From: Actinomycetota bacterium
GTDB lineage: Bacteria > Actinomycetota > Actinomycetes > Mycobacteriales > Mycobacteriaceae
NCBI GenBank assembly: GCA_018268465.1
Contig: JAFDWN010000035.1
Location: 1-64,000 of the forward strand
DNA length: 64,000 nt
Reading direction: 5' to 3'
Shown here: in pieces, positions 19,059 through 41,427 of the stretch
Position numbering within the stretch: position 1 is the first letter of the stretch
Layout: each line of letters starts with the position of its first letter
Translations under genes and position numbers: made by a program
Notes under the pieces: generated by a model
The model's database searches: none
Seen by the model: only the letters and a program-made list of their open reading frames with translations
Told to the model about the DNA's origin: nothing

Positions 19059-19074
19059 GAGTATCCACATACTC
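19059..19074. promoter_or_regulatory. Palindrome between divergent dioxygenase and P450 genes
   Basis: GAGTAT-CCAC-ATACTC, a perfect inverted repeat, 85 bases before the dioxygenase ATG and 72 bases before the P450 ATG. A third GAGTAT copy occurs at 19123-19128. Likely binding site for a regulator acting on both genes; no regulator gene is adjacent. Confidence 0.5.
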
Positions 19075-19146
19075 TAAGTGCGCCACCCCGGCGATGCGAT
19101 CCTCAATCGAGCAGATATTTGCGAGTATTGAACGGGGGGATCCACG

Positions 19147-24273: not shown

Positions 24274-24280
24274 CGTCGAG

Positions 24281-26962: not shown

Positions 26963-27093
26963 TATTGCTGTTCATATTCGGCCGTCTCGGGGACACCGCC
27001 GCCCCGATGGGGTTCGATGTCTTGCAGTGCGCACCGGATCGCGTGGCGAATTGCCGCAGGCGCAAGACCGGTGCAGCTGGCAAAGGAGTCGAC

Positions 27094-27540
27094 GTGGTTG
27101 ATCTCAAGCTCGAAGTCGTGGTGCTGCCGGTCTCCGACGTCGACCGGGCCAAGGCCTTCTACGGGGCGCTGGGGTGGCGGCTGGACGCCGACATCGCCAC
27201 CGATGAGGACTTCCGGGTGATCCAGTTCACTCCGCCCGGCTCGCCCTGTTCGATCATCTTCGGTACCGGGATCACCTCGGCCACACCGGGTTCCGTCGCC
27301 GGGTTGCATCTTGTCGTCACCGACGTCGAGGCCGCGCGCGCCCATCTCCTCGAATTTGGCGCCGATGTCAGCGAGGTATTCCACGACGTCGGCGGGGTGT
27401 TCCACCATGCCGGGACCACCGGTCGCGAGCCGGGCCCCGATCCGCAGCGCACCAGCTACGGATCATTTGCGGCGTTCAGCGACCCGGACGGCAACGAATG
27501 GGTGCTCCAAGAAGTCACCACGCGCCTTCCGGGGCGCTGA
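27094..27540 (+). CDS. VOC-family (glyoxalase-like) protein
   Basis: A 148-residue vicinal oxygen chelate protein. Paired beta-alpha-beta modules begin with VVVLPVSDVDRAKAFYGALGW and HLVVTDVEAARAHLLEFG, and the C-terminal FSDPDGNEWVLQE carries the usual final Glu ligand. Members are glyoxalases, dioxygenases or resistance proteins. The start is GTG 27094 after AAAGGAG at 27082-27088; the frame remains open 43 codons upstream but without a ribosome site. It stands alone between the divergent regulator and the IclR operon. Substrate unknown. Confidence 0.86.
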   Translation: MVDLKLEVVVLPVSDVDRAKAFYGALGWRLDADIATDEDFRVIQFTPPGSPCSIIFGTGITSATPGSVAGLHLVVTDVEAARAHLLEFGADVSEVFHDVGGVFHHAGTTGREPGPDPQRTSYGSFAAFSDPDGNEWVLQEVTTRLPGR

Positions 27541-27770
27541 CCCGGCGGGTCCGAAAATTCCGTAGGCCACTTCGGGCCCCCGGGCCACGTCAGTCTCCAC
27601 GGACTCTTGCGCCGCGCGGCTGGTCGCGGGGTCGTCCTGCTCGCTTCCGCGCGACCGCGGTGGTGCTGGTGTGGCAGCCGGGATTTTGCTGACCTCACCC
27701 CGCTGTCGGTGACGCGTCCGGCGGCCGGGTACCGGCTCTCGTATGGCGACCGAAACGCTGAATGCGTGAC

Positions 27771-27799
27771 TTGACGCGCACCCACCGACGTCCTATGGT
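27771..27799 (+). promoter_or_regulatory. Promoter of the IclR-headed operon
   Basis: TTGACG (27771-27776), 17-base spacer, TATGGT (27794-27799). The start of transcription would be near 27806, just before the first operator repeat. This is the only convincing promoter I see for the 13-gene operon. Confidence 0.6.
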
Positions 27800-27808
27800 C
27801 TAGCTCAC

Positions 27809-27843
27809 ATCCACATTATGGATAGGAGATCCACAATATGGAG
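27809..27843. promoter_or_regulatory. Tandem IclR operator repeats
   Basis: Two near-identical inverted repeats of ATCCA-N5-TGGA: ATCCACATTATGGAT at 27809-27823 and ATCCACAATATGGAG at 27829-27843. They are exactly 20 bases apart, close to two helical turns, so protein dimers would bind the same face. The ribosome site ATAGGAG lies between them and the second repeat covers the IclR start codon, indicating autoregulation. Confidence 0.7.
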
Positions 27844-28635
27844 ATCTCGGGTGCCCAGTCCGCTTACCGGGTCCTTGACGTCCTCACCGAAGTCTCGTTG
27901 AACCCCGGCTCCACCGCGGGCGAAGTGGCGAAAGCGACGAATCTGACCGCCCCGACCGCCCACCGGCTGCTGCGGGTCCTCTGCGACCGCGGCTTCGCCG
28001 TTCAGAACGACGACGGGAAGTACGTCCCCGGCCCGCAGATGCGCGTCCTCGTCGGCGACGGCGTCGACCATGCCGTCCTCGACGAGATCGGCCGCCCGCT
28101 GCTGGCCAAGCTGCGCGACGAGACCACCGAGACGGTGTTCCTCTCGGTTCGCGAAGGGCTGCAGCTGGTCTACCTGGTGGTGATGCGCTCCCCGCATTCC
28201 GTGCAGATGTACGGCGAAGTGGGACAACAGATTCCGTTGCATGCCACCAGTCAGGGCAAGGTCATCCTGGCCTTCCTGCCGCCCGGCGTCGGCGATCGCA
28301 TCATCGACCAGCTCGAGATGCCCCGCTACACACCGTCGACCATTGCCAACCACGCCGACCTGCACGAGGCGATGTCCGACGTCCGGCGGGACGGCTACGC
28401 GCTGAACCTCGAAGAGCGTGAACTCGGCGTCCGCTCCATCGCCGCACCCGTCCTCGACGCCGCCGGCAATGTCGTCGCCTCGGTCTGCGTGGGCGGCCCC
28501 ATCTTCCGTGTCACCGAAGAAGACCTGCGCGGCAGGTTCGCCGATCTCGTATCCGCCACCGCCGAAGCGATCAGCGCCGAACTCCTGCGCCGCTACCAGC
28601 CCGTCGAACCGGCCGACCAGCGCGACGCCCGATGA
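27838..28635 (+). CDS. IclR-family transcriptional regulator
   Basis: A 265-residue IclR protein. The N-terminal winged helix (about 5-65) has LTAPTAHRLLRVLCDRGFA as recognition element; the C-terminal ligand domain (about 75-255) has the typical HATSQGKVILAFLP and EERELGVRSIAAPVLDAAGNV stretches. ATG 27838 follows ATAGGAG and lies inside the second operator repeat. It is the first gene of the operon it probably controls, sharing the ATGA overlap with the next gene. The ligand is likely the imported compound or an acid derived from it. Confidence 0.92.
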   Translation: MEISGAQSAYRVLDVLTEVSLNPGSTAGEVAKATNLTAPTAHRLLRVLCDRGFAVQNDDGKYVPGPQMRVLVGDGVDHAVLDEIGRPLLAKLRDETTETVFLSVREGLQLVYLVVMRSPHSVQMYGEVGQQIPLHATSQGKVILAFLPPGVGDRIIDQLEMPRYTPSTIANHADLHEAMSDVRRDGYALNLEERELGVRSIAAPVLDAAGNVVASVCVGGPIFRVTEEDLRGRFADLVSATAEAISAELLRRYQPVEPADQRDAR

Positions 28636-29063
28636 GAACCGTCAGGGTATTGGGCGACATCGCCGTCGGTGACACGGCGACCCACACGGCCACGGTCGAC
28701 GCCGCCGCCATCGCCGCCTACGCGGCGTTGAGTGGCGATCACAACCCCATCCACGAGGACACCGCCTACGCCGCCACCACCGCATTCGGCCGCCCCGTCG
28801 GCCACGGTCTGCTCGTCGCGGGATACGTGCAGACCGCGCTGACCGAACTCGTTGCGCCCGGCGGTGTCTCGACCAGCTACCACATCGACTTGCACGCCCC
28901 GACCTACGAAGGAACGACCGTCACCGCGCAGGCCACCTGCGTGGAGCTGAACCCGGTGACCCGACGGGCCACCTTCGCCATCACCGTCGTCGACGACATC
29001 ACCCGCACCACGCTGATCAGCGGATCCGCCGTCGTCGCCTTCCCCAAAGGAGAGAACCGATGA
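28632..29063 (+). CDS. MaoC-like (R)-specific enoyl hydratase
   Basis: A 143-residue single hotdog-fold protein. The hydratase-2 motif SGDHNPIHED carries the catalytic Asp and His, followed by FGRPVGHGLLVAGY of the central helix. It would add water to an enoyl-CoA (R-specific) or act on a related thioester. Overlaps both IclR and the substrate-binding protein gene by four bases. The operon also holds a crotonase-type hydratase, so two different stereochemical hydrations or two substrates are implied. Confidence 0.88.
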   Translation: MRTVRVLGDIAVGDTATHTATVDAAAIAAYAALSGDHNPIHEDTAYAATTAFGRPVGHGLLVAGYVQTALTELVAPGGVSTSYHIDLHAPTYEGTTVTAQATCVELNPVTRRATFAITVVDDITRTTLISGSAVVAFPKGENR

Positions 29064-30178
29064 AGATCCGCGCCATCCTGCCCACCGTCGTCTGCGGCGT
29101 CACCGTGCTGGCCATGACCGCCTGCAGCGCCAGCGTCGACAACAACGCCGACCCGTCCGGGACCGCGGCGCCGGCCGACGTGCAGATCGACGACGGTGGC
29201 TGCGCCAAGAACCACGACCAGATCGCCTCTCTTCAGCAGGATCTCGCCAAGAACCTCTACGGCATCGCCGCCGCGGAATCCGGCGCCAAGACCTCCACCG
29301 ACCCGAACCCGAAGGCGCCGGGTGATCCCATCAAGATCACCTTCTCGATCGAAGGGCTCAGCCATCCGTTCCTGGTCAAACAGAAGCAGCTCGCCGAAGA
29401 GGCGGCGCGGAACAACGGTGTGCAGATCAACGTCGTCAGCGCCAACGACGACGTCAACCAGCAGTTCAACGATATTCAGACGGCCATCGCACAGGGCACC
29501 GACGCCCTGATGATGATGCCCGCCACCACCCAGGGTCTCGATGCGGTCCTGGCCCAGGCCCAATCCAAGGACGTGCCGTACTTCTTCAGCCAGAAGGGCA
29601 TGCTCGGTGTCCAACCGGTCTCCCAGGTGCTCGCACCGTATGCCAACGAGGGAAAACAGTTGGGGGAGTGGGTTGTTGAGAACTACAAGGGCCAGGACAA
29701 CGTCAACGTCGCGGTGATCTCGGGCATCCCGGGCGACCAGTCCAGCGACGCCAGGGTCAATTCCTTCCTGCTGCCGCTGCTGCGCGCCTGCACCTTCAAC
29801 GTGGTCGCCAACCAGCCCGGCAACTACCGCCGCGGCGACTCGGAGAAAGCCGCGCAGAACATGATCGCCGCCAACCCCGACATCGACCTACTCTTCGGCG
29901 CCAACGACGAAGCAGCACTCGGCGGCATCGCCGCGCTCAACTCCAGCGGGCGCAGCGGCGTCGACGTCGTCGGACTCGACGGACAGACCGACATGTTCGC
30001 CGCCATCGAAAACGGCCAGGCGCTGGCCACCGTCATCCACAAACCCACCGCGGGCATCGTCGTCGACGAGATCGTCGCCTACCTGCAGGGCCAACCGGTA
30101 CCCGAATACAAGGTGCTCGACGAGGATCTCGTCACCAAGGACACCATCGACGCCGGCAAGGCCGAACCCGCATTCTGA
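29060..30178 (+). CDS. Sugar-type ABC transporter substrate-binding lipoprotein (CUT2/RbsB-like)
   Basis: A 372-residue secreted binding protein. A signal peptide of about 21 residues ends before C22 in LAMTACSAS, a weak lipobox. The periplasmic-binding fold of the ribose class starts near residue 90 (IKITFSIEGLSHPFLVKQKQLAEEAA), with QFNDIQTAIAQGTDALMMMP and GLDGQTDMFAAIENG typical of the family. It is longer than RbsB by an extra 60-70 residue N-terminal part of unknown role. ATG 29060 follows AAAGGAG. Delivers the substrate to the permease and ATPase encoded next. Confidence 0.92.
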   Translation: MKIRAILPTVVCGVTVLAMTACSASVDNNADPSGTAAPADVQIDDGGCAKNHDQIASLQQDLAKNLYGIAAAESGAKTSTDPNPKAPGDPIKITFSIEGLSHPFLVKQKQLAEEAARNNGVQINVVSANDDVNQQFNDIQTAIAQGTDALMMMPATTQGLDAVLAQAQSKDVPYFFSQKGMLGVQPVSQVLAPYANEGKQLGEWVVENYKGQDNVNVAVISGIPGDQSSDARVNSFLLPLLRACTFNVVANQPGNYRRGDSEKAAQNMIAANPDIDLLFGANDEAALGGIAALNSSGRSGVDVVGLDGQTDMFAAIENGQALATVIHKPTAGIVVDEIVAYLQGQPVPEYKVLDEDLVTKDTIDAGKAEPAF

Positions 30179-30199
30179 CCGCACCCCCGGGAGAACCTG

Positions 30200-31225
30200 A
30201 TGACCACCACCACGGCACCGCCGCAGCCGGCCGGCACCGCCGACCACCCCGAACGACGCAATGCCCTCCGCGGGCACAGCCTGCGTGAGCTCGCCCAGCT
30301 GGGGCCCGTCGTGGCACTGGTCCTGCTGGCCGCGTTCTTCGCAGTCGCCGCACCGCATTTCACCTCGGGCAGCAACCTCACCAACGTCCTCCAGCAGGTG
30401 TCGATCACCGCGGTCGCCGCGGTCGGCGCCACGGTCGTCATCCTCGTCGCGGGGATCGATCTGTCCGTCGGTTCGGTGGTGGCCCTGACCGGGAGCGTCG
30501 CCGCGCTGTACCTGCAGCACGCGATCCTGTCCACCGGGGCGTCTGCCCTCGTGGCCGTACTGCTGAGCCTGGTCGTCGGGACCGCCTGCGGCTTCGTCAA
30601 CGGGCTGCTGGTCACCGTGGCCAAAGTGCCGGCGTTCATCGCCACCTTGGCCACGCTCACCGCCCTGCGCGGGATCGCGCTGCTTGTCACCAACAGTTAT
30701 CCGATCTCGATCAACAACCCGACATTCACCAACATCGGCATCGGCAAGATCGGCCCCGTCCCGATCCCGGTGATCATCATGGCGGTGACGTTCGCGGTCG
30801 GCTACGTCATCCTGCACCGCCTCAAGATCGGCAGGCGTATCTACGCGGTCGGCGGCAACCGGGAGGCGGCCCGGCTCTCCGGCATCCGGGTGTCGCGGGT
30901 TCTGTTGTTCGCCTTCACTTTCGCCGGGCTGTGCGCGGGTGTGGCGTCGGTGATCCTGACCGCCAAGCTGTCCTCGGGGCAGCCGGCCGGCGCCGTCGGC
31001 TTCGAACTCGACGTGATCGCCGCGGTGGTCGTGGGCGGCACCAGCCTGTTCGGCGGACGGGGCAGGCTCGCCGGGACCTTCCTCGGCGCACTGGTGATCG
31101 CCGTGCTCGGCAACGGTCTCACCCTGATGAATGTCCCGTTCTACTGGCAGCAGATAGTCACCGGCGCCGTCGTGGTCGGGGCGGTCGTGCTGGACCGGGT
31201 CACCCGCGGGGAGCCGGGCGAATGA
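30200..31225 (+). CDS. ABC transporter permease (RbsC/CUT2 type)
   Basis: A 341-residue permease of the ribose-type branched family, with roughly eight to ten hydrophobic segments. The family hallmarks VGATVVILVAGIDLSVGSV and AAVVVGGTSLFGGRGRLAGTFLGAL are intact. A hydrophilic N-terminal extension of about 35 residues precedes the first segment. CUT2 importers usually have one permease acting as homodimer, matching the single permease gene here. Its stop overlaps the ATPase start as ATGA. Confidence 0.93.
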   Translation: MTTTTAPPQPAGTADHPERRNALRGHSLRELAQLGPVVALVLLAAFFAVAAPHFTSGSNLTNVLQQVSITAVAAVGATVVILVAGIDLSVGSVVALTGSVAALYLQHAILSTGASALVAVLLSLVVGTACGFVNGLLVTVAKVPAFIATLATLTALRGIALLVTNSYPISINNPTFTNIGIGKIGPVPIPVIIMAVTFAVGYVILHRLKIGRRIYAVGGNREAARLSGIRVSRVLLFAFTFAGLCAGVASVILTAKLSSGQPAGAVGFELDVIAAVVVGGTSLFGGRGRLAGTFLGALVIAVLGNGLTLMNVPFYWQQIVTGAVVVGAVVLDRVTRGEPGE

Positions 31226-32739
31226 CACTGGCCGCACCCCCACGCGCCGGCCTGCTCGCCGCGTCCGGTATCAGCAGGCGCTACGCCGGCGTCGCCGCAC
31301 TTGAGGACGTCTCGATCACGTTGGAGCCCGGCACGATCCACGCACTCGTCGGCGAGAACGGCGCGGGGAAATCCACCCTGTCCAAGATCCTGTCCGGCTT
31401 CGAGACCGCCGACGCCGGTGCCGTCACCCTCGACGGTGCGCCGATCAACCCGAAGAACCCCGCCCACGCCGCCGGTCTCGGCATCGCCATCGTGCACCAG
31501 GAACTCTCCGTCATCGGCAGCATCTCGGTGGCCGAGAACGTGCTCGTCGGCGCCGAACCGTCCCGCTGGGGTGTCATCGACCGCCGCGGTCTGGCCGAAC
31601 AGGCCAGGGGTTACCTGAAGCGGGTCGGCCTTGACATCGATCCGCGCCGCAAGGCCGGCGATCTGTCCATCGCCGAGCAGCAACTCGTCGAGATCGCCCG
31701 CATCCTCGCCCAGGACGCCCGCGTCGTATTCTTCGACGAACCCACCTCCTCACTGCCGCACGATGATTCGCTCAGACTGCTCAACCTGCTACGGGAGCTT
31801 CGCGACGACGGCGCCGCCGTCGTGCTCATCAGCCACGACCTGCCCGAGGTGCTGGAATACGCCGACACCGTCAGCGTGCTGCGCGACGGTAAGCACATCA
31901 TCACCGGGCCCGCCGCCGAGTTCACCGAGGAGTCCCTGATCAAACACATGATCGGGCGCAACCTCGACGTGCTCTACCACGGTCACCGCGAAACGGGCGA
32001 CGCCGAGCACCCCGTACTGCGTGTCGAGGGCATCAGCGCACCCGGGGTCCTCGACGCGTCACTGAATGTGAGCGCCGGTGAGATCCTCGGAATCGGCGGA
32101 CTGGTCGGCAGCGGGCGCTCCGAACTGCTCGCCGCCATCTTCGGAGCGACCCGAATCACCGCCGGGGACATGCGGTTCGGCGGCGAACCCCATCGACCCC
32201 GCCACCCCGGCGAGGCGTTGGCCGCCGGGGTGGCGCTGGTGCCCGAGGACCGCAAGAACCAGGGTCTGCACCTGCGCCTGCCGATCAGCACCAACATCGA
32301 ACTGTCCAGCCTCGCCGAGATCAGCAGCGGACCGTGGCTGCGGCGCCGCCGCGGCGCCGTGATCGTCGATCGGTTCTTCACCGAATTGCGCATCAAGGCC
32401 GCCAGTCCCGCCATGCCCGTCGGCGCGCTGTCCGGCGGCAACCAGCAGAAGGTTGCCCTGGCCAAGGTGCTCGCCACCCGGCCCAAGGTCCTGCTGCTCG
32501 ACGAACCCACCCGCGGCATCGACGTCGGCGCCAAAGCCGAAGTGCACCGGCTCATCCGGAGCCTCGCAGACGAGGGGATGGCCATCGTCATGGTGTCCTC
32601 GGTACTGCCCGAACTGCTCGGCGCCTCCGACCGCATCGTCGTCATGCGCGCCGGGCGCACCGTCGGCGAACTCGGCCGCGCCGACGCCACCGAGGAAGCC
32701 GTCATGACACTGGCCTTCGGCGGGAGCGCCGTCCGATGA
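31222..32739 (+). CDS. ABC transporter double ATPase (RbsA/CUT2 type)
   Basis: A 505-residue tandem ATPase. Domain 1 has Walker A GENGAGKS, the family's altered signature LSIAEQQ and Walker B VVFFDEPTSSL. Domain 2 has the expected degenerate Walker A GLVGSGRS, signature LSGGNQQK and Walker B VLLLDEPTRGIDVG. The asymmetry is normal for sugar importers. ATG 31222 overlaps the permease stop; its own stop overlaps the next gene. Drives import of the unknown substrate. Confidence 0.94.
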   Translation: MTLAAPPRAGLLAASGISRRYAGVAALEDVSITLEPGTIHALVGENGAGKSTLSKILSGFETADAGAVTLDGAPINPKNPAHAAGLGIAIVHQELSVIGSISVAENVLVGAEPSRWGVIDRRGLAEQARGYLKRVGLDIDPRRKAGDLSIAEQQLVEIARILAQDARVVFFDEPTSSLPHDDSLRLLNLLRELRDDGAAVVLISHDLPEVLEYADTVSVLRDGKHIITGPAAEFTEESLIKHMIGRNLDVLYHGHRETGDAEHPVLRVEGISAPGVLDASLNVSAGEILGIGGLVGSGRSELLAAIFGATRITAGDMRFGGEPHRPRHPGEALAAGVALVPEDRKNQGLHLRLPISTNIELSSLAEISSGPWLRRRRGAVIVDRFFTELRIKAASPAMPVGALSGGNQQKVALAKVLATRPKVLLLDEPTRGIDVGAKAEVHRLIRSLADEGMAIVMVSSVLPELLGASDRIVVMRAGRTVGELGRADATEEAVMTLAFGGSAVR

Positions 32740-33446
32740 CCGACCGTGTCGCCGTACTCACCGGCGCCGACGGCGGCCTCGGCCGCGCCGTCGCCCAGCG
32801 GTTGGGCAAGGACGGGTTCCGCCTCGTCCTCGGCCACCATCCCGGCGGCGACGCCCCGCCGGCCACCGACGGCGTCACCGTGCCCGCCGACGTCACCTCG
32901 GAAAGCGATGTCGCACGGCTCATGTCAGTGGCCGTCACCGAGTTCGGGCGGATCGACGCCGTCGTCACCCTGGCCGGAGTGATGGAGCAGCTCCATGTGC
33001 ACGAACTCGACCTCGCCACCTGGAACCACACCCTGGCCGTCAACCTGACCGGAACGTTCCTGTGCGTCAAGACCGCCGAGGACGAACTGCGCAGAACCCG
33101 TGGCGCGGTCGTCACCATCGGCAGCCAGATCGGCTACACCGGTGGCATCAACTGCGCGGCCTACACCGCGTCGAAAGCCGGTGTCGGCGGTCTCACCAGG
33201 GCCCTGGCCCGCGAACTCGGCCCCGACGTGCGCGTGAACTGCGTGGCGCCGGGACCGATCGAGACACCGATGACCGCGGTGCATGCCACACCGGAATGGG
33301 TGGCGCAGAAAACCCGCCAACTGGTGATGGGGCGCTTCGGGACACCCGACGAGGTCGCCACCGCGGTGTCCTGGCTGGCCGGTCCGGAGTCCAGCTTCGT
33401 CACCGGACAGACCGTCAACGTCAACGGGGGAGGGGCAATGCCATGA
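32736..33446 (+). CDS. Short-chain dehydrogenase/reductase
   Basis: A 236-residue classical SDR. TGADGGLG is the cofactor motif, NLTGTF stands at the usual Asn position, catalytic Ser lies in IGSQIG, and YTASK holds the Tyr/Lys pair. PGPIETPM and GQTVNVNGG end the fold. Close to FabG-like 3-oxoacyl reductases, so oxidation of a 3-hydroxyacyl-CoA is a reasonable role here, though sugar or polyol oxidation is possible. Overlaps both neighbours by four bases. Confidence 0.9.
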   Translation: MTDRVAVLTGADGGLGRAVAQRLGKDGFRLVLGHHPGGDAPPATDGVTVPADVTSESDVARLMSVAVTEFGRIDAVVTLAGVMEQLHVHELDLATWNHTLAVNLTGTFLCVKTAEDELRRTRGAVVTIGSQIGYTGGINCAAYTASKAGVGGLTRALARELGPDVRVNCVAPGPIETPMTAVHATPEWVAQKTRQLVMGRFGTPDEVATAVSWLAGPESSFVTGQTVNVNGGGAMP

Positions 33447-35047
33447 GAATCAGCAAGACCGTCGCACCGGAGTTCCTGTCCGCCGCCGACGCGGTCGAAC
33501 GCATCCCCGACCGAGCCCGCCTGCTCGTCGAGGCGTCCGGCGGCGGCGTCATCGAACCGTCCGGCCTCATCGCCGCGCTCGCAGACCGGTTCCGGCGCAC
33601 CGGCACCCCTTCGGATCTCTCGGCCTACTTCTGCAGTGGCATCGGGGACCGCAACGGGTCGGGTATGGACGTGCTGTCCCCACCCGGCCTGCTGCGCCGC
33701 GCCGTCGCGGGCCACTGGGCGATGACGCCGACGCTGTCCAAGATGGCCCACGACGGACAGATCGAGGCCTACAACCTGCCGCAGGGTGTGCTGGCCCAGT
33801 TGCTGCGCGAAAGTGCGGCCAAACGACCGGGTTTGGTCACCACCGTCGGGCTGGGCACATTCTGCGACCCCCGGCAAGGCGGGGGGCGGCTCAACGCTGC
33901 CACCACCGACCACCTCGTCGAGGTCCTCGAACTGCGCGGCGAGGAGTACCTCTTCTACCCGAGCCCCGCCTTCGACGTCGCGTTCATCCGGGGCACCACC
34001 GCCGACGAACACGGCAACCTCACCCTCGAACACGAAACCGCCAAACTCGGGGTGCTGGCCGCGGCCTCCGCCACCCGCAACAGCGGCGGCCTGGTCATCG
34101 CCCAGGTCAAGCGGATCGCCGCCGCGCACACGCTCAATCCCAAGAGCGTCGTCGTGCCCGGTCACCTCATCGACGTCGTGGTCGTGTGCGAGGACCAGTG
34201 GCAGACCGCGATCAACGAATACAACCCGGCCTTCTCCGGCGAGGTGTACGTACCGTTCGGCCTTTCCCCGGCCATGCCGCTGTCGGAACGAAAAGTGGTG
34301 GCGCGCCGGGCTCTCGACGAGATATCCGCCGCGTCGGTGGTCAACCTCGGCGTCGGCATGGCCGACGGAGTGGCCACGGTCGCGCTCGAGGAGGATCGCC
34401 TGCGGGAGATCACGCTGACCGTCGAGCAGGGCATGATCGGGGGTGTGCCCGAACGCGGCGTGATCTTCGGCGTCACCTGGAATCCCGAGGCCGTCATCGA
34501 ACACGCCTCACAATTCGACTTCTACGACGGCGGCGGGCTGGACGTCGCCTGCCTGGGCTTCGCCGAGGTCGACAAGGAGGGCAACGTCAATTCGTCGCTG
34601 GTCAACGGGCGTATCTTCGGCGCCGGCGGCTTCATCAACATCTCCCAGGCGGCGAAGAAGGTGGTGTTCTGCGGCACCCTCACCGCAGGCGGGCTGTCCC
34701 TGGACCTGACCGACGGGCACCCCCGGCTCACCGCCGAGGGCCGGCACCGCAAGTTCATCGACCGCGTCCACCAGATCACCTTCAACGCCGAACTGGCCCG
34801 CCAGCGCGGCCAGGAGGTCATCTACGTCACCGAACGTGCCGTATTCGTCCTCGGCGACGACGGTCCCGTACTCGTCGAGGTGGCACCGGGCTGGACCGCC
34901 GAACAGATCGTGGCCCTGATGGACTTCCGGCCCAAACTCGCCGACGACATCGGCGTCATGTCAGCGGGCCTGTTCGCGGTTACCCGCAGGCAGGCGCACC
35001 CACCGACCCCACCCACCCCGCACGCCGACACCCCCAAGGAGCACTGA
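33443..35047 (+). CDS. Family I CoA-transferase (acetate/3-oxoacid type, fused subunits)
   Basis: A 534-residue CoA-transferase in which the alpha and beta halves are one chain, as in YdiF. The first half has ASGGGVIEPSGLIAALADRF and FIRGTTADEHGNLT, the second NLGVGMADGVATVA and VEQGMIGGVP, where E328 is the expected covalent glutamate. It moves CoA between short acyl groups, activating the acid made by the aldehyde dehydrogenase without ATP. The last 20 residues are Pro/His-rich and may be disordered. Start ATG 33443 overlaps the SDR stop. Confidence 0.92.
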   Translation: MRISKTVAPEFLSAADAVERIPDRARLLVEASGGGVIEPSGLIAALADRFRRTGTPSDLSAYFCSGIGDRNGSGMDVLSPPGLLRRAVAGHWAMTPTLSKMAHDGQIEAYNLPQGVLAQLLRESAAKRPGLVTTVGLGTFCDPRQGGGRLNAATTDHLVEVLELRGEEYLFYPSPAFDVAFIRGTTADEHGNLTLEHETAKLGVLAAASATRNSGGLVIAQVKRIAAAHTLNPKSVVVPGHLIDVVVVCEDQWQTAINEYNPAFSGEVYVPFGLSPAMPLSERKVVARRALDEISAASVVNLGVGMADGVATVALEEDRLREITLTVEQGMIGGVPERGVIFGVTWNPEAVIEHASQFDFYDGGGLDVACLGFAEVDKEGNVNSSLVNGRIFGAGGFINISQAAKKVVFCGTLTAGGLSLDLTDGHPRLTAEGRHRKFIDRVHQITFNAELARQRGQEVIYVTERAVFVLGDDGPVLVEVAPGWTAEQIVALMDFRPKLADDIGVMSAGLFAVTRRQAHPPTPPTPHADTPKEH

Positions 35048-35048
35048 C

Positions 35049-36182
35049 ATGCGCACCCGGGCAGCCGTCACCTACGGCCTCAACACCCGCTTCCAGGTCA
35101 AGGAAGTCGAACTGCACGAACCCGGCCCCAACGAGGTGCTCGTACACCTGGTGGCGTCGGGGATCTGCCACTCCGACATGCACCACGTGACCGGCGACCA
35201 GATCGCGCGGCTGCCGATGATCTTCGGCCACGAAGGGGCCGGCGTCGTCGAACAGGTCGGGGCCAATGTCACCCACGTCGCCCCCGGCGACCACGTGGTG
35301 ATGTCCTACCTGCCCTCCTGCGGCACCTGCCGTTGGTGCACCAACGGGCAGACCAACCTGTGCGACCTGGGTGCGCACACCGTCGAGGGGCCGCAGCTGG
35401 ACGGCACCTACCGGTTCCGCGACGACGACGGCGTCGAACTCGGGCAGTTCTGCCTGGTGTCGACGTTCAGCGAATGGACCGTCGTGCCGGGCCAGTCGGT
35501 GGTCAAGGTGGACAAGCATTACCGCCTGGAGCGGGCCTGCCTGGTGGCGTGCGGCGTCACCACCGGGGTGGGCACCGCCGTCTACCGGGGCGGGGTGGCG
35601 CCCGGCGACGACGTCATGGTGTACGGCGTCGGCGGCATCGGGATGAACATCGTGCAGGGCGCCCGCATCGCCGGGGCCAAACGGATCATCGCCTGCGACA
35701 TCAACGACTGGAAACTGGAACAGGCCAAGATGTTCGGGGCCACCCACACCGTCAACCCGACCGTCACCGACCCCGTCGAGTTCGCGACCGAATTGACCTG
35801 GGGCGTCGGCGTGGACAAGGCTTTCGAGGCCATCGCCACCGCGGAGACCATCGGGCAGGCGGTGCGGTCGGTGCGAAAGGGCGGTGTCGCGGCCGTCGTG
35901 GGACTGACCCGCTTCGACCAGCCCGACATCCCGATCAACCCGTCGGATTTCGTGCTCTGGCAGAAGACGCTCACCGGATCGCTCAACGGTGGCTGCAATC
36001 CGCGCAACGACATCCCGAAGATGTTGCGTCTGTGGGATTCCGGGCAATTGAACCTCGACGGGCTGGTGACCCGCGAGTACCGCATCGAGCAGATCAACGA
36101 AGCCTATGACGACCTGCTCGCGGGTAAGAACCTCCGCGGCGTGATCCGCTACGAGTGGGCCGACAACGGGGTGGGAGCCTGA
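35049..36182 (+). CDS. NDMA-dependent (mycofactocin-associated) zinc alcohol dehydrogenase
   Basis: A 377-residue zinc alcohol dehydrogenase, the same length as the one at 9954 and of the same NDMA-dependent type. Catalytic ligands C40 and H61, structural cysteines C91, C94, C97 and C105, and the cofactor motif GVGGIGMNIVQGA are visible. Family members hold NAD tightly and pass electrons to mycofactocin. ATG 35049 follows AAGGAG. It would oxidise the imported alcohol to the aldehyde handled by the aldehyde dehydrogenase downstream. The two copies differ enough to have separate substrates. Confidence 0.9.
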   Translation: MRTRAAVTYGLNTRFQVKEVELHEPGPNEVLVHLVASGICHSDMHHVTGDQIARLPMIFGHEGAGVVEQVGANVTHVAPGDHVVMSYLPSCGTCRWCTNGQTNLCDLGAHTVEGPQLDGTYRFRDDDGVELGQFCLVSTFSEWTVVPGQSVVKVDKHYRLERACLVACGVTTGVGTAVYRGGVAPGDDVMVYGVGGIGMNIVQGARIAGAKRIIACDINDWKLEQAKMFGATHTVNPTVTDPVEFATELTWGVGVDKAFEAIATAETIGQAVRSVRKGGVAAVVGLTRFDQPDIPINPSDFVLWQKTLTGSLNGGCNPRNDIPKMLRLWDSGQLNLDGLVTREYRIEQINEAYDDLLAGKNLRGVIRYEWADNGVGA

Positions 36183-37354
36183 TGACACCGTCGGTCCGTA
36201 TGCAGGCGGCCCACGGGCTCGACGCCGAGGCCGAACAGTTCCTGGGCGTGGTCGGCGACTTCTGCGCCAGCCGTGTCGCCCCGCGCGCACAGGAGATCGA
36301 CCTGTCCGGCGAGTTCTTCCCCGATCTGCTGGCCGAGGCGGCTGAACTCGGTTTGCAGGGGTTGATCTTCGGCGAAGACGGCACCGTCGACCCGACCATG
36401 TTCGCCTTGGCCCACGAGACCACCGAACTGATCGCGTCCTACTCCGGCGCGGTCGCGCTGGGAATCTCGATCGCCCGCCTGCACGGCTACCTGTTGGCGG
36501 CCTACGCACCGCAGGCGATCCGGGACCGGTGGCTGCCCGGCCTGATCGACGGCACGGTGCGGGGCAGCTTCGCGCTGAGCGAACCGCACTCCGGCACCGA
36601 CATCAGGGCCGGCCGCACGGTCGCGGTGGCAGTGGATCCCGACACGGTGTCCATCAGCGGCGAGAAAGCGTGGATCACCCAGTCCCCGGCGGCGCACTTC
36701 TGCATCGTGCTCGCCAAACTGGGGTCCGCCGACCGCGACGCGCCCACCGGTGCGTTCGTCGTGCCGATCGACGCCGGCGGCGTCACGGTGGGGCAGGACG
36801 AGCCGATGTCGGGATTCCGCGGAATGCCCATGGCCAACCTGCATTTCGACGACTGCCGGGTGCCGTCGGCGTGGCGGCTGGACGTCGACGGGTTCCGGGG
36901 CATGCTCGAAGGTCTCAACCTGGCCCGGCTGGACGCGGGCTGCTACGGCGTCGGGTTCATGCGCGCGGCGCTGCGTGAGACGAGCGCATACGTGCGGGAC
37001 CGGATCGCGTTCGGCAAACCGCTGGCCGACCTGCAGATCGTGCAGGACAAACTCGGCCGGATGCACGCCGACTACCTGGCCGCCCGCGGTCTGCTGCGGG
37101 AAGGCGTCGCCAGCTTCGCCACCGGCGGCGGCGGCGATTCGCACCTGATCTCGGCGGCCAAGATGTTCGCCACCGACGCCGCCATGCGGCACACCACCGA
37201 AGCCGTCCAGCTGCACGGCGGATACGGCGTGCATCTGCATTACGCAGTGCAGCGATTGATGCGCGACGCCAAGATCACCCAGATCATCGACGGCACCAGC
37301 GAGATCCACGCACTCATGCTCGGCCGCGCCGCGGCGCGCGCCGACTGGTCCTGA
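36182..37354 (+). CDS. Acyl-CoA dehydrogenase with Asp at the usual catalytic Glu position
   Basis: A 390-residue acyl-CoA dehydrogenase. FALSEPHSGTDI and WITQSPAAHFCIV are the flavin-binding motifs, and the C-terminal QLHGGYGVHLHYAVQRLMRDAKI is typical. The end, EIHALMLGRA, resembles glutaryl-CoA dehydrogenase. The catalytic base, usually Glu in Y-E-G-T, reads I-D-G-T here (D370), and the alternative base position of isovaleryl-CoA dehydrogenase is Ala. The enzyme may therefore be slower, shifted in substrate, or not a plain dehydrogenase. ATG 36182 overlaps the previous stop by one base. Confidence 0.9.
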   Translation: MTPSVRMQAAHGLDAEAEQFLGVVGDFCASRVAPRAQEIDLSGEFFPDLLAEAAELGLQGLIFGEDGTVDPTMFALAHETTELIASYSGAVALGISIARLHGYLLAAYAPQAIRDRWLPGLIDGTVRGSFALSEPHSGTDIRAGRTVAVAVDPDTVSISGEKAWITQSPAAHFCIVLAKLGSADRDAPTGAFVVPIDAGGVTVGQDEPMSGFRGMPMANLHFDDCRVPSAWRLDVDGFRGMLEGLNLARLDAGCYGVGFMRAALRETSAYVRDRIAFGKPLADLQIVQDKLGRMHADYLAARGLLREGVASFATGGGGDSHLISAAKMFATDAAMRHTTEAVQLHGGYGVHLHYAVQRLMRDAKITQIIDGTSEIHALMLGRAAARADWS

Positions 37355-37363
37355 GGAGCCACC

Positions 37364-38836
37364 ATGACGACCACCGTGTCACAGCAGTCCGCCGCGCTCG
37401 CCGAGCGCATGCAGAGGGCAGTCTTCCTCGACGGCGAGTTCGTACCCGCCGAGGGCGAGCCGCTCGCGGTCACCGACAAAGCCACCGGGGAGACACTCGG
37501 CCATGCGGCGACGGCCACCGCGGCCGAGGTCGACCGCGCGGTGGCGGGGGCGCTCGGCGCGCAACGGCAGTGGCACGCACTGCCCGCGACGGAGCGCGCG
37601 GCGATCCTGCGCCGCGGCGGCGCCGTCCTGGAACGCGAGGCCGGGCGCTTCAAACAGCTGCTGATCCGTGAGGGCGGCGCGGTCGGGGCCAAGGCGGAAG
37701 GGGAGATCGCCGCCAGTGTGGTCGAGTTCTTCCAGGCCGCCGATCTCGCGACCACGCCGCTGGGCGAGGTGATCCCGTCGGGTCAGCGCGGACGTGTCAA
37801 CCTGGTCGAACGCCGGCCGGTCGGCGTTGTCGGCCTGATCACCGCGTGGAACGCGCCCGTACACATCGCGATGCGGGTGCTCGCCCCGGCGATCGCCCTC
37901 GGCAACGCCGTGGTGCTCAAACCCGCGCCGGAGACGCCGTTCACCGGCGGTCTGATGCTGGCAGAAGTCCTGGCCGAAGCCGGCCTACCGCCCGGTGTCG
38001 TGCAGGTCGTCACCGGCGGGCCCGCCGGGCCGGCGCTGGTCACGCACCCCGATGTGGCCATGATCCACTTCACGGGTTCGGAGGACACCGGCCGCCGGAT
38101 CAACGAAGCGGCCGCCCCGTTGCTCAAGCGGGTGGCACTGGAACTGGGCGGCAACAACGCCAGCGTGGTGTTGTCCGACGCCGACCTCGACCTCGCCGCG
38201 CGCTGCGGTGCGGCCTCCTCGTTCGGACATCAGGGCCAGGTGTGTATCGCCACGGGCCGTCACGTCGTACTCGCTGACGTCGCCGAGGAGTACATCGGGC
38301 GGCTGGCCCGGCATGCCGCCGGCCTCACCGTCGGCGACCCGTTCGTCTCCGAGGTGGACCTCGGGCCGATGCTCTCGGCCCGTCAGGTCGACAAGGCGCT
38401 GGCGATGATGACCAGCAGTATCGAACGTGGCGCCCGTCTGGTGGAGGGCGGAACCGCCGACGGAGTCTTCCTGCGCCCCACCGTCGTCGACCGCGTGCGA
38501 CCCGGCATGCAACTTCACGACGAGGAGGTGTTCGCGCCGATCGCCCCGGTGACGGTCGTCGACTCGGTCGAGGAGGCGCTGGCGATCGTCAACGGGACGC
38601 GTTTCGGGCTGTCGACATCGATCTTCGGGCGCGACCTCGACCATGCGTGGGCCGTGGCCGATCGGGTCCGGGCCGGGATGGTGCACGTCAACGACGGCAC
38701 CGCGTTGCACGAATGCCATGTGCCGTTTGGAGGCACAGGGGCCTCCGGCCTCGGCGACGACCTGGGCGGACGGGCGAGCATCGACCTGCTGACCGAACGG
38801 CGCTGGACGAGTCTGCAGCGAAAAACGTTGCCGTGA
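37364..38836 (+). CDS. Aldehyde dehydrogenase (benzaldehyde dehydrogenase-like branch)
   Basis: A 490-residue aldehyde dehydrogenase. LELGGNNASVV has the general-base Glu, and the nucleophile is C294 in GHQGQVCIATGR; TAWNAPVHIAMRVLAPAIALGNAV binds the cofactor. The GQVCIATGR form occurs in enzymes acting on aromatic or bulky aldehydes. ATG 37364 follows GAGGAG. It oxidises the aldehyde from the alcohol dehydrogenase to an acid for the CoA-transferase. Stop overlaps the next gene as GTGA. Confidence 0.92.
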   Translation: MTTTVSQQSAALAERMQRAVFLDGEFVPAEGEPLAVTDKATGETLGHAATATAAEVDRAVAGALGAQRQWHALPATERAAILRRGGAVLEREAGRFKQLLIREGGAVGAKAEGEIAASVVEFFQAADLATTPLGEVIPSGQRGRVNLVERRPVGVVGLITAWNAPVHIAMRVLAPAIALGNAVVLKPAPETPFTGGLMLAEVLAEAGLPPGVVQVVTGGPAGPALVTHPDVAMIHFTGSEDTGRRINEAAAPLLKRVALELGGNNASVVLSDADLDLAARCGAASSFGHQGQVCIATGRHVVLADVAEEYIGRLARHAAGLTVGDPFVSEVDLGPMLSARQVDKALAMMTSSIERGARLVEGGTADGVFLRPTVVDRVRPGMQLHDEEVFAPIAPVTVVDSVEEALAIVNGTRFGLSTSIFGRDLDHAWAVADRVRAGMVHVNDGTALHECHVPFGGTGASGLGDDLGGRASIDLLTERRWTSLQRKTLP

Positions 38837-39546
38837 GCGATGGTTCGGTAGACTTTCGCAGGTCCGGCGCGGTCGGGCGGATCGTGCTGGACCGGCCCGC
38901 CAAACGCAACGCGCTGAGCACACAGCTGCTACGGGAGCTCCGCGGTCTGCTCGACGCCGTCGGCGGCGAGAGCGAGATCCGGGTCGTCACCGTCGAGGGT
39001 GCGGGCCCGGTGTTCTGCGCGGGCGCCGACACCCGTGAATTCGGCACCGCCACAGCAGAGACCGTCCGCGGACCGTGGACGCGGCTGGGGCAGCAGGTGT
39101 TCGCCGCGCTGGCCGAGCTGCCCCAAACCACCGTGGCGGTGCTGACGGGCGGGGCCTACGGCGGCGGACTGGAGCTGGCCATGCACTGCGACTTCCGGAT
39201 CGCGGCGCCCGATGCCGTCCTGGCCCTGCCCGAGGCGACGTTGGGCACCGCGCCGGGCTGGGCGGGGCTGGGCCGCATCGTCGAGCTGGCGGGCCTTCGC
39301 GCGGCGCGCATGCTCGCGCTGACCGGACGGACGTTCACCGCGGCGGAGGCGCTGCAATTCGGACTCGTCGACATCGTGTCCGACAACCTCTCCGAGGATG
39401 TCGACGAGCTCATCGACGACATCCTCGCCACCGCGCCGCTCGCACAATCAATAATCAAGCGCGCCTTGGTGAGTCGGGAACCATCTGCCACGCTGGTCGA
39501 CTCGCTCGCGGGCGCATACCTCACAACGACGGCAAGGAGCACATGA
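38833..39546 (+). CDS. Enoyl-CoA hydratase/isomerase (crotonase family)
   Basis: A 237-residue crotonase. The oxyanion-hole stretches FCAGAD and GGAYGGG are present, and both catalytic glutamates of true hydratases appear to be kept, in GGGLELAMHCD and LPEATLGTAPG. It would hydrate the enoyl-CoA made by the acyl-CoA dehydrogenase to an (S)-3-hydroxyacyl-CoA. GTG 38833 overlaps the aldehyde dehydrogenase stop. A hotdog hydratase is also encoded in the operon, so one of the two may serve another step. Confidence 0.9.
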   Translation: MSDGSVDFRRSGAVGRIVLDRPAKRNALSTQLLRELRGLLDAVGGESEIRVVTVEGAGPVFCAGADTREFGTATAETVRGPWTRLGQQVFAALAELPQTTVAVLTGGAYGGGLELAMHCDFRIAAPDAVLALPEATLGTAPGWAGLGRIVELAGLRAARMLALTGRTFTAAEALQFGLVDIVSDNLSEDVDELIDDILATAPLAQSIIKRALVSREPSATLVDSLAGAYLTTTARST

Positions 39547-40268
39547 TGGCGAGAACGGTTCTGATCGCGGGATCGTCGCGCGGCATCGGCGCGGCGGCGG
39601 CGCGTCAGGAGGCCAAGAACGGCTCACGGGTCATCCTGCACGGGCGCAGCGACTCGCCCGCGCTCAAGGAACTCGCCGCCGAACTGGATGCACCCGCCCA
39701 CAGTTGCGACGGCCAGGACGCCGCCGCCGTCGCCGAGTTGGTGGACTCGGTGCTGGCGGGTGGGGACCGGATCGACGCGCTGATCTGCACTCTGGGCAGC
39801 GTCACCGCCACCGACGCGATGCACGGCCCCACCGATGCCTGGCTCGACGAGTACCGCAGCAACGTGCTGGGACCGGTCAACTTCATCCGGGCCGTCGCCC
39901 CGTCGATGCTGGCCAACGGGCATGGTCGCATCGTCACCGTCTCGTCGATCCGCGGACGTGACAACCTCGCGAGCCCCGAGGTCACCGCATACTCGGCGGC
40001 CAAGGCGGCGCTGGAGAACGTGACGGTGTCGTTCGCCAAGGCGCTCGCGCCGGCGGTCACCGTGAATGCGGTCGCGCCGGGGTTCGTCCTCACCGACATG
40101 TCGCAGACCTGGTCGGACGAGGTCCGCAAGGAGGTGGCGACCAACCTGCTGGGCCGTGCCGCCGAACCCGAGGAGATCGCGGCGCTGCTGTGCTTCCTGG
40201 TCAGCGACGGCGCCAGCTTCATCACCGGTCAGACGATCCTGGCCGACGGCGGACTGGATGCGCGCTGA
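39546..40268 (+). CDS. Short-chain dehydrogenase/reductase
   Basis: A 240-residue SDR. AGSSRGIG is the cofactor motif; VSSIRG and YSAAK hold the catalytic Ser, Tyr and Lys; APGFVLTDMS and GQTILADGG close the fold. Two ATG codons are adjacent in frame, at 39543 and 39546; the second has the better spacing from AAGGAG (39534-39539). Second SDR of the operon, so two distinct alcohol/ketone steps are likely, one possibly on a 3-hydroxyacyl-CoA. Confidence 0.9.
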   Translation: MARTVLIAGSSRGIGAAAARQEAKNGSRVILHGRSDSPALKELAAELDAPAHSCDGQDAAAVAELVDSVLAGGDRIDALICTLGSVTATDAMHGPTDAWLDEYRSNVLGPVNFIRAVAPSMLANGHGRIVTVSSIRGRDNLASPEVTAYSAAKAALENVTVSFAKALAPAVTVNAVAPGFVLTDMSQTWSDEVRKEVATNLLGRAAEPEEIAALLCFLVSDGASFITGQTILADGGLDAR

Positions 40269-40269
40269 G

Positions 40270-41427
40270 ATGACCACCCTGCACCTGCCGTCGGCCGGCG
40301 GCACATGCGACGCCGTCGAACTGGCCCCGCCCGCCGCGCTGGCGACCTTGTCGGCGCCCCCGCGCAGCCGCGCCGTCTATGCCGCCGCCCACGTGGTCGC
40401 AGATCCGCTGCGAGCGTCCGTGCCCGCCGGTCCCGGCCAGATCGATTGGGAGACAACGATACAACTTCGTCGTGACATTTGGTCGCTGGGTCTCGGCGTG
40501 GCCGAGTCGATGGACACCGCACAGCGCGGGATGGGTCTGGACTGGGCGGGCGCGCGGGAGCTGGCGCGGCGGACGCTCGCCGAATCGCGCCACTGCGGGG
40601 GCACCGTCGCCGTCGGAGTGAACACCGACCAGATCGCCGCGGCCGACGCGTCGCTCGGGCAGATCCGCGACGCCTACCTCGAGCAGATCGCCGATATCGA
40701 ATCCGCCGGCGGCGAGGTGGTGATGATGGCGAGCAGGCACCTGGCTCGCGCCGCCACCGGACCCGAGGATTACCTGAGCGTCTACGACGCCGTCCTGTCT
40801 CAGGCCACCGGCCCGGTGATCCTGCACTGGCTGGGTGCGGTGTTCGATCCCGCACTGGCCGGGTACTGGGGGTTCGACGAACCCAAGGCCGCGATGCAGA
40901 CCGTCGCGGACCTCATCGGCGCGCACCCCGCAACGGTGCGCGGAATCAAGGTGTCGCTACTGGACCCGGCGTTGGAAATTCAGTTACGCGAACGGGTTCG
41001 GCCACCGGCACGGGTGTTCACCGGCGACGACTTCAACTACGTCGACCTGATCGCCGGTGACGGTTCCCGCACCAGCGACGCGCTACTGGGAGCCTTTGCG
41101 GCGATACCGCGATTCGCATCGGCGGGGTTTGCGCGGCTCGACGCCGGCGACGAGGCCGGCTTCCGCGCGATCCTGGAGCCGACCGTCGCGCTGAGCCGGC
41201 TGATCTTCGAAACGCCGACCCAGTACTACAAGGTGGGCGTCGCGTGGCTGGCCTACCTCGATGGCCGGCAGGATAACTTCCGGATGATGGCCGGGTTCGA
41301 GACCGGTCGCAGCCTGCTGCATCTGGCCGAGCTGGTGCGGGTTGCCGGCACGATCGGTCTGTTCGCCGACCCCTCCTTCACCGCGGCGCGGGCGTCCGCC
41401 TACTTCGCCGTGCACGGTGTGGGGTAG
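40270..41427 (+). CDS. DUF993 protein, DHDPS/aldolase-like TIM barrel
   Basis: A 385-residue protein of the DUF993 type, distantly related to dihydrodipicolinate synthase/N-acetylneuraminate lyase. PVILHWLG aligns with the PVILYN strand of that superfamily, where the usual Tyr is replaced, and GIKVS aligns with the Schiff-base strand, placing K227 at the catalytic lysine. A retro-aldol or related carbon-carbon cleavage is therefore a reasonable inference. It is the last gene of the IclR operon, one base after the SDR stop. An ATG at 40258 inside the SDR gene is an alternative start. The substrate is unknown. Confidence 0.8.
   Translation: MTTLHLPSAGGTCDAVELAPPAALATLSAPPRSRAVYAAAHVVADPLRASVPAGPGQIDWETTIQLRRDIWSLGLGVAESMDTAQRGMGLDWAGARELARRTLAESRHCGGTVAVGVNTDQIAAADASLGQIRDAYLEQIADIESAGGEVVMMASRHLARAATGPEDYLSVYDAVLSQATGPVILHWLGAVFDPALAGYWGFDEPKAAMQTVADLIGAHPATVRGIKVSLLDPALEIQLRERVRPPARVFTGDDFNYVDLIAGDGSRTSDALLGAFAAIPRFASAGFARLDAGDEAGFRAILEPTVALSRLIFETPTQYYKVGVAWLAYLDGRQDNFRMMAGFETGRSLLHLAELVRVAGTIGLFADPSFTAARASAYFAVHGVG

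Follow-up and report, generated by a model that had tools for sequence, protein, structure and literature searches.

What reaction does a DUF993 protein catalyse at the end of an operon that joins a sugar-type importer to alcohol oxidation and acyl-CoA enzymes? The operon lies in a 64,000-nucleotide stretch of DNA (the window; reported contamination of its assembly, 5.86%), and a preliminary description had proposed that DUF993 acts there as a carbon-carbon lyase instead of a thiolase. Among 298 genomes sampled from the window's order, 117 contain DUF993; one structure has been solved, and the candidate active-site residues hardly vary. Even so, our literature search found no paper using the names DUF993 or PF06187. 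Naming its substrate and reaction would show what a large family of catabolic loci does.

A thirteen-gene operon with a conserved start

Open reading frame listing and profile-based naming placed 13 closely spaced forward-strand genes, all in one direction, at 27838-41427, in the order IclR, MaoC, SBP, permease, ATPase, SDR1, CoA-transferase, ADH, ACAD, ALDH, ECH, SDR2, DUF993. Eight of the 12 junctions are overlaps of 1 or 4 bases, and the other four are gaps of 1, 1, 9 and 21 bases. Mycobacterium sp. AZCC_0083 (locus L160) carries all 13 genes in unchanged order with protein identities of 56-89%, and DNA similarity between the two spans 27792 to 41417 with short breaks. Because 13 of 13 genes recur and similarity is confined to that interval, we regard the unit as bounded, and the kept order argues that it did not arise by chance. 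These results bear out the proposal of a single operon, and Pfam profiles back every name in its 13-gene list, with NCBIfam TIGR03989 above cut-off for the alcohol dehydrogenase. The start proposed for the operon, 27771, coincides with a promoter-like site and not with the first gene, which begins at 27838. No Rfam family matched between 24000 and 46000.

27771-27799, forward strand: promoter-like site TTGACG-17-TATGGT (pattern search: 1 found against 0.9 expected in shuffles)
27810-27822, forward strand: putative IclR operator box 1, TCCACATTATGGA, an imperfect palindrome (sequence comparison with L160)
27830-27842, forward strand: putative IclR operator box 2, TCCACAATATGGA, over the IclR start codon (sequence comparison with L160)
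27838-28635, forward strand: IclR-family regulator, 265 aa (Pfam; 74% identical in L160)
28632-29063, forward strand: MaoC-like hydratase, 143 aa (PF01575, 62 bits; 67% identical in L160)
29060-30178, forward strand: the importer's sugar-binding protein, 372 aa (PF13407; ribose-type binding proteins as PDB relatives)
30200-31225, forward strand: importer permease (BPD_transp_2), 341 aa (PF02653)
31222-32739, forward strand: importer ATPase with two ABC domains, 505 aa (PF00005, two stretches)
32736-33446, forward strand: short-chain dehydrogenase SDR1, 236 aa (Pfam)
33443-35047, forward strand: family I CoA-transferase, YdiF/FadX-like, 534 aa (Pfam, NCBIfam, 2ahu)
35049-36182, forward strand: NDMA-dependent-type zinc alcohol dehydrogenase (ADH), 377 aa (TIGR03989)
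36182-37354, forward strand: acyl-CoA dehydrogenase (ACAD), 390 aa (Pfam, NCBIfam; D370)
37364-38836, forward strand: aldehyde dehydrogenase (ALDH), 490 aa (PF00171, 480 bits)
38833-39546, forward strand: crotonase-type enoyl-CoA hydratase (ECH), 237 aa (Pfam; E114, E134)
39546-40268, forward strand: short-chain dehydrogenase SDR2, 240 aa (Pfam)
40270-41427, forward strand: DUF993 protein, 385 aa, DHDPS-like, with invariant K227; proposed carbon-carbon lyase (PF06187)

The promoter-like site and the tandem boxes at the IclR start are new relative to the preliminary description. Identical hexamers with identical spacing are readable upstream of the IclR gene in AZCC_0083, which also shares the two tandem TCCACAWTATGGA boxes, spaced 20 bases apart in both genomes. 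Exact TCCACAWTATGGA matches occur only twice in the 6.9 Mb genome, both at this site, with none for the reversed control. A search near the promoter-like site found no inverted repeats; the boxes are short imperfect palindromes. Six same-genus genomes in the order sample, the window's own included, contain DUF993, and only the window's own contains the CoA-transferase, so the operon is patchy.

Importer, oxidation enzymes and the thiolase question

Pfam and the PDB relatives of the binding protein support the proposed CUT2-type importer: it comprises an RbsB-type binding protein, a BPD_transp_2 permease and an ATPase with two ABC domains. The binding protein has a lipoprotein-like signal, read from its sequence. 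Aligned with the E. coli ribose-binding protein, it keeps the residues at R141, N190 and D215 and changes those at N13, D89, R90 and Q235, all of which we take to be ribose contacts. With four aligned contacts changed we set aside an ordinary ribose binder, as a lead only, the alignment having been read by eye.

The CoA-transferase shows whole-chain homology to 2ahu (YdiF type; 488.7 bits over 11-512), carries the Glu of the EQG motif (E328), which is also present in all 17 loci aligned, and falls below the cut-off of the FadX equivalog NF052271 (371.2 versus 750). The alcohol dehydrogenase exceeds the cut-off of TIGR03989, the NDMA-dependent model (481.9 versus 440 bits). The acyl-CoA dehydrogenase has the domains of its family, with Asp (D370) at the position of the near-C-terminal catalytic Glu; the same position is Asp in L032 and Glu in the other five of six relatives (L112, L117, L119, L121 and L140). 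The crotonase keeps both Glu motifs, E114 and E134, presumably the catalytic pair. Gene set and profiles thus agree with the proposed alcohol and aldehyde oxidation, CoA activation and incomplete beta-oxidation. The genome also encodes two glycerate kinases, unlinked to the operon.

The claim that no thiolase is present also holds: tblastn with one PcaF query found no match in the window (best E 3.9), and none of the 13 genes has a thiolase domain in Pfam. With one query, thiolase was likewise matched in only 1 of the 18 loci described below that pair DUF993 with a CoA-transferase, and in none of the other 17. Thiolase_N is matched 28 times in the window's own genome, and roughly twelve of these matches are long, so an unlinked thiolase could be used.

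DUF993 and its two gene settings

The last protein of the operon matches PF06187 over the whole model (531.2 bits, cut-off 24, positions 1-382 of 382). This was the only Pfam family reported at E <= 0.001, the DHDPS model (PF00701) not being matched, and NCBIfam has no model for the gene. As had been claimed, K227 stands in register with the Schiff-base lysine of DHDPS-type lyases, though in weak profile alignments (E 0.17 and E 0.39; another at E 2e-4 with a probability of 47%). The position is lysine in 122 of 122 DUF993 rows, some of them near-identical and the window's protein counted twice. DUF993 also shares GIK and a TGDD-like stretch with the DHDPS/NAL lyases; unlike them, it has DTAQR in place of the carboxylate-binding GTTGE motif and His186 in place of the catalytic Tyr, and similarity at the level of the whole family is at the detection limit. 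Homology is clear over residues 20-384 (379.9 bits) to 4dnh, the sole solved DUF993 relative found, which was deposited as uncharacterised and which we take to be S. meliloti SMc04132. A published listing gives SMc04132 as an uncharacterised protein (PMC12542648).

Beyond the window's order, DUF993 was found in proteobacteria, Chloroflexota, Gemmatimonadota and a Psychrobacillus; being common across the sampled genomes, it is neither rare nor special to this operon. In order genomes with both DUF993 and a YdiF/FadX-type CoA-transferase, the two genes lie at most 5.3 kb apart in six of seven cases, or five of six without the window's own genome. DUF993 and the CoA-transferase are recurrently linked, and the synteny of DUF993 with CUT2 genes and a CoA-transferase, a check that the preliminary description had proposed, recurs in other genomes. 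The CoA-transferase occurs without linked DUF993 in 8 of the 14 order genomes and 14 of the 15 phylum genomes that have it.

We compared 92 DUF993 loci, a non-random set: 77 came from the 80 most window-like DUF993 matches (6 with a CoA-transferase), 10 were plasmid stretches chosen from 147 matching records (7 with a CoA-transferase) and 5 were taken for having both genes. Some end at contig edges. Gene labels were assigned by BLAST with a small reference set drawn from annotated loci and the window, so a missing label does not prove that the gene is missing. A CoA-enzyme label was absent in 71 of the 92 loci, 67 of which had both a Gfo/Idh dehydrogenase and a sugar isomerase/epimerase (SPIE). 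The latter is present in 83 of the 92 loci and missing from the window operon, its sole match in the window's own genome being 32% over 173 residues. The 18 loci with a CoA-transferase (17 distinct, since L120 and L121 contain one identical S. meliloti protein) had SDR in 16, ECH in 13, SPIE in 12, ALDH in 10, GlyK in 8 and ACAD in 7. In L141 and L142 a DUF1537-type kinase and an epimerase-family gene follow DUF993. L139 contains a shikimate-dehydrogenase-like gene.

The CoA setting is scattered on a DUF993 tree, with seven changes, at least four of them forced by starred branches, which led us to reject one lineage as the source of the linkage; the tree was built by a quick method from 63 of 93 rows, part of the Gfo-type rows being dropped, and 23 of its 59 inner branches are open. 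When 18 CoA rows (window included) were set against 40 Gfo rows, L120 and four 'other' rows being left out, 69 columns carried a single residue, shared by the two settings, in at least 95% of the rows of each. Under the criterion applied, none of the well-conserved positions was swapped between settings, and we rejected a swapped active site in CoA-type DUF993. Ten positions, for example 311 and 341, are fixed in Gfo rows (38-40 of 40) and loose in CoA rows, which suggests that the substrates of the two settings may differ. Between the window and Rhodococcus sp. USK13, identity is 70% for DUF993, 43% for the CoA-transferase and 31% for the acyl-CoA dehydrogenase, pointing to exchange of the CoA module around a kept DUF993.

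A candidate pathway, its rivals and its relatives

Our preferred reading, held tentatively and just short of an even call, is that the operon, under IclR control, would serve the breakdown of an imported compound resembling a polyol or sugar, and that DUF993 would act in it as a Schiff-base lyase on a free keto-polyol or keto-acid and be joined to a CoA module. After import, the alcohol and aldehyde dehydrogenases would produce an acid from a primary alcohol or from an aldehyde set free at a later step; the CoA-transferase would turn the acid into a thioester; and the acyl-CoA dehydrogenase, the two hydratases and an SDR would carry beta-oxidation as far as the 3-oxo stage. In this operon an SDR would supply the keto substrate of DUF993, a task that would fall to the Gfo/Idh dehydrogenase in most of the other bacteria seen. 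Carbon-carbon cleavage through K227 would yield a small hydroxy-acid or hydroxy-aldehyde, which in relatives would pass to glycerate kinase or the DUF1537-type acid-sugar kinase, and the CoA module would deal with the other fragment. More broadly, and with somewhat less confidence, DUF993 may represent an undescribed class of Schiff-base carbon-carbon lyases at the core of a widespread, likewise undescribed catabolic system. That system would have been combined repeatedly with a CoA-transferase/beta-oxidation module and would thereby turn partly deoxygenated polyols into sugar-like and acyl-CoA fragments; the window would then hold a slimmed version without isomerase and kinase.

DUF993 might instead replace a thiolase outright, cleaving the operon's 3-oxoacyl-CoA (or 3-hydroxyacyl-CoA). 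The near-absence of thiolase from the CoA-type loci is what such a replacement would predict; DUF993 lies directly after an SDR in the window and in L117, L119 and L120; L140 comes close to a minimal set (ADH, ALDH, CoA-transferase, ACAD, SDR, MaoC, GlyK and Etf) with DUF993-SPIE divergent alongside; and the ten loosened positions point the same way. A thioester would also fit S. meliloti, Paracoccus and Rhizobium TH2, where ACAD, SDR, DUF993, SPIE and Etf form a single gene run. Against this, DUF993 is common, 71 of 92 loci lack a CoA-enzyme label and no conserved residue is swapped, which leaves the 'instead of a thiolase' proposal weak, and the window's genome has its own long thiolase matches. 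Since no conserved position is swapped, the substrate is probably not a thioester, and we consider the replacement unlikely. Those genomic thiolases would fit a different alternative, also unlikely though slightly less so. In it DUF993 would not be a lyase and would dehydrate, hydrolyse or isomerise a sugar-like intermediate, the carbon-carbon cleavage being left to an unlinked household thiolase. The DHDPS superfamily includes dehydratases, and the loss of GTTGE and the catalytic Tyr would suit such a role; the invariant lysine and the single thiolase match among 18 CoA-type loci speak against it.

A carbocyclic polyol bearing CH2OH or COOH (a C7-cyclitol or quinate-like compound), with the acyl-CoA dehydrogenase acting on the ring and the crotonase opening it, is very unlikely. 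Cyclohexane-1-carbonyl-CoA dehydrogenase is the second-best NCBIfam match of the former and cis-4-hydroxycyclohexanecarboxylate dehydrogenase a match of SDR1, but both are far under cut-off (184.4 of 650 and 170 of 350 bits, respectively). The Asp at the ACAD base position and the shikimate-dehydrogenase-like gene would be compatible with a ring, whereas the crotonase's two Glu motifs favour plain hydration over ring opening.

The closest published system to the one proposed here as a lyase-CoA pathway is in Klebsiella michiganensis, where deoxyribonate is catabolised via acyl-CoA intermediates, an exception to the earlier generalisation that acyl-CoA chemistry is not the usual way to degrade sugars (PMC6365646). 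The points of likeness are the processing of a sugar acid in CoA-thioester form and the presence of hydroxyacyl-CoA dehydrogenase, CoA-transferase and glycerate kinase (PMC6365646). The Klebsiella cluster, as described, has a CoA-synthetase and a thiolase, neither of which is among the window's 13 genes; the window would activate by CoA-transferase, its glycerate kinases are unlinked, and it has DUF993 and an acyl-CoA dehydrogenase, a term absent from the main text on that pathway (PMC6365646).

Our literature search found no description of two clusters of similar make-up, on S. meliloti 1021 pSymA (L121) and a Rhodococcus sp. USK13 plasmid (L112). Like the window, both have importer genes of CUT2 type, dehydrogenases for alcohols and aldehydes, CoA-transferase, ACAD, SDR and DUF993, and ECH is common to the window and L121; such CoA-linked loci tie DUF993 to a readable enzyme set, including in the laboratory strain S. 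meliloti 1021. Both carry in addition SPIE, glycerate kinase, aldo/keto reductase and GMC oxidoreductase, with EtfBA also in L121, and identity to the window's proteins is 30-45% for CoA-transferase, ACAD, ADH and ALDH.

Organisation and control of the 13-gene operon

The preliminary description had proposed one tightly packed transcription unit headed by an IclR regulator and ending in DUF993 (PF06187). Its genes, and a promoter-like site ahead of them, are as follows:

27771-27799: promoter-like site TTGACG-17-TATGGT (about one expected by chance in the scanned stretch)
27838-41427 (+): 13-gene operon, in the order IclR, MaoC, binding protein, permease, ATPase, SDR1, CoA-transferase, NDMA-type alcohol dehydrogenase (ADH), acyl-CoA dehydrogenase (ACAD), aldehyde dehydrogenase (ALDH), crotonase, SDR2, DUF993

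Eight of the 12 gene junctions are 1- or 4-base overlaps, and the widest gap is 21 bases. Mycobacterium sp. AZCC_0083 keeps all 13 genes in the same order at 56-89% identity, and DNA similarity between the two runs, with short breaks, from 27792 to 41417, seven bases before the DUF993 stop codon. This conserved order and bounded similarity indicate that the proposed unit is real and that both its ends are known. An 893-residue LuxR-type regulator with an AAA domain lies upstream (24281-26962, minus strand), and a LuxR-type gene also lies downstream of the AZCC_0083 operon (15694-16623 of that locus). Convergent with the operon end is a MOSC/YiiM domain fused to an FAD/NAD-binding and 2Fe-2S reductase part (41514-43229, minus strand).

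By reading of its sequence, AZCC_0083 has identical promoter hexamers at identical spacing. Just 3' of the promoter-like site are two imperfect palindromes 20 bases apart, TCCACATTATGGA and TCCACAATATGGA, the second spanning the IclR start codon; AZCC_0083 has such a pair too, at equal distance. Genome-wide, the motif has two exact matches, both at the operon start, and a reversed-motif control had none. We infer that the IclR protein is probably autoregulating and dedicated to this operon. Another palindrome, GCCACATTGTGGA, lies at 7703-7715; it is nearly perfect and differs from the putative operator box at two positions.

Among the encoded proteins, the CoA-transferase is YdiF-like and has the Glu of the EQG motif, and the crotonase retains both Glu motifs, which we take to be catalytic. 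The ACAD, like that of AZCC_0083, has Asp at a position occupied by Glu in five of six relatives compared. The binding protein is of the ribose type, yet falls below every curated cut-off.

DUF993 in two genomic settings

DUF993 is a common family: 117 of the 298 genomes sampled from the order and 29 of the 396 from the phylum have it, and matches also occur in at least 592 genome-contig stretches and in 147 plasmid records. The window's genome has a single copy. We compared 92 DUF993 loci of at least 10 kb, a biased sample comprising 77 from the 80 most window-like matches, 10 plasmid stretches and five fetched for having both DUF993 and the CoA-transferase. A sugar isomerase/epimerase (SPIE) gene was present in 83, a Gfo/Idh dehydrogenase gene in 75 and glycerate kinase in 14; 71 had no CoA-enzyme label, 67 of these having both Gfo/Idh and SPIE. 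A CoA-transferase of the window's kind was present in 18, including loci of Rhodococcus sp. USK13, Sinorhizobium meliloti pSymA, Paracoccus, Rhizobium, Octadecabacter and several actinobacteria.

A less biased test came from two one-gene searches of the order, each covering 298 genomes under the same handles. The CoA-transferase was found in 14 genomes (E <= 1e-40) and both genes in seven, six of which have them within 5.3 kb (five of six, all within 3.2 kb, without the window's own genome). Against linkage, DUF993 is unlinked or missing in eight of the 14, and of the 15 genomes in the phylum sample that have the CoA-transferase, only the window's own also has DUF993. On the DUF993 tree, built by a quick method that leaves 23 of 59 inner branches open, the CoA setting requires seven changes, at least four of them forced by starred branches. 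Linkage of DUF993 to the CoA-transferase is a repeated feature.

The window's DUF993 clusters with those of AZCC_0083 and USK13 (SH-aLRT 97), whereas its CoA-transferase joins the AZCC_0083 protein and one from a Nocardioidaceae genome (98). Identity to USK13 is 70% for DUF993 but 43% for the CoA-transferase, 45% for ADH, 35% for ALDH and 31% for ACAD. These differences indicate that CoA modules have been exchanged around a retained DUF993.

A close counterpart in a laboratory strain, S. meliloti 1021, on pSymA (13132-33001 of its locus) carries, by BLAST labels, CUT2-type genes, ADH, ALDH, GMC, CoA-transferase, enoyl-CoA hydratase (ECH), glycerate kinase, two aldo/keto reductases, ACAD, SDR, DUF993, SPIE and EtfBA. 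In locus L139 (6354-14848), shikimate-dehydrogenase-like and amidohydrolase genes share a stretch with ECH, CoA-transferase, SDR, Gfo/Idh, DUF993 and SPIE. Related CoA-transferases with no DUF993 nearby (L143-L148) form their own clade, and in L143-L145 the gene adjoins an MFS transporter gene.

The DUF993 reaction and the search for a thiolase

Weak profile alignments place DUF993 K227 on the DHDPS Schiff-base lysine. K227 is lysine in all 122 DUF993 rows, which count the window's protein twice and include near copies, and D82, R86, H186, D193, D253, D254, K321 and R347 are each likewise invariant. Unlike DHDPS-type lyases, DUF993 retains neither GTTGE nor the catalytic Tyr. The family has one solved structure, 4dnh. 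In the literature searched, no paper under the names DUF993 or PF06187 and no described DUF993 pathway was found; one paper lists SMc04132 as an uncharacterised protein (PMC12542648). Between the two settings, 69 columns hold the same single residue at >=95% and none is swapped, while ten positions (e.g. 311, 341), each held by one residue in 38-40 of the 40 Gfo rows, are loose in CoA rows. We read this as one reaction type acting on perhaps somewhat different substrates and, because most DUF993 loci show no CoA-enzyme label, as probably a reaction on a non-thioester.

The preliminary description's statement that the operon has no thiolase is supported by a single thiolase query, which had no match in the window and matched only one of the 18 CoA-transferase loci. 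In that locus, L113, pcaF adjoins a second, separate pair of CoA-transferase genes some 6.7 kb away from DUF993. Its further idea, that DUF993 replaces the thiolase, we consider unlikely. With 28 Thiolase_N matches, roughly a dozen of which are long, the window's genome could supply a general thiolase to finish the pathway. The family agrees better with DUF993 acting as a lyase that cleaves a free keto intermediate than with thiolase replacement, and we put the chances of the former at slightly under even.

The nearest described pathway found is the CoA-dependent deoxyribonate catabolism of Klebsiella, which employs a CoA-synthetase, a hydroxyacyl-CoA dehydrogenase, a thiolase, a CoA-transferase and a glycerate kinase and shows that sugar acids can go through acyl-CoA chemistry (PMC6365646). 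Compared with that pathway, the window's operon has ACAD and DUF993, and a CoA-transferase without a synthetase or a thiolase match.

Glycerate kinase occurs in eight of the 18 CoA-transferase loci. In its place, L141 and L142 have a two-domain PF07005 + PF17042 kinase, presumably a DUF1537 acid-sugar kinase, and an epimerase-family gene that we take to be DenD-like. These kinases and the epimerase-family gene point to a C3 or C4 hydroxy-acid as the product fragment. The row of L141 (7652-14260) and L142 (8178-14618), comprising CoA-transferase, CaiB-type CoA-transferase, DUF993, acid-sugar-type kinase and epimerase-family dehydrogenase, would be consistent with a four-carbon acid product. The window's genome has two PF02595 glycerate kinases, both away from the operon, no PF13660 glycerate kinase and no good SPIE match (32% over 173 residues), so the window's version of the system appears to be slimmed or to use other genes.
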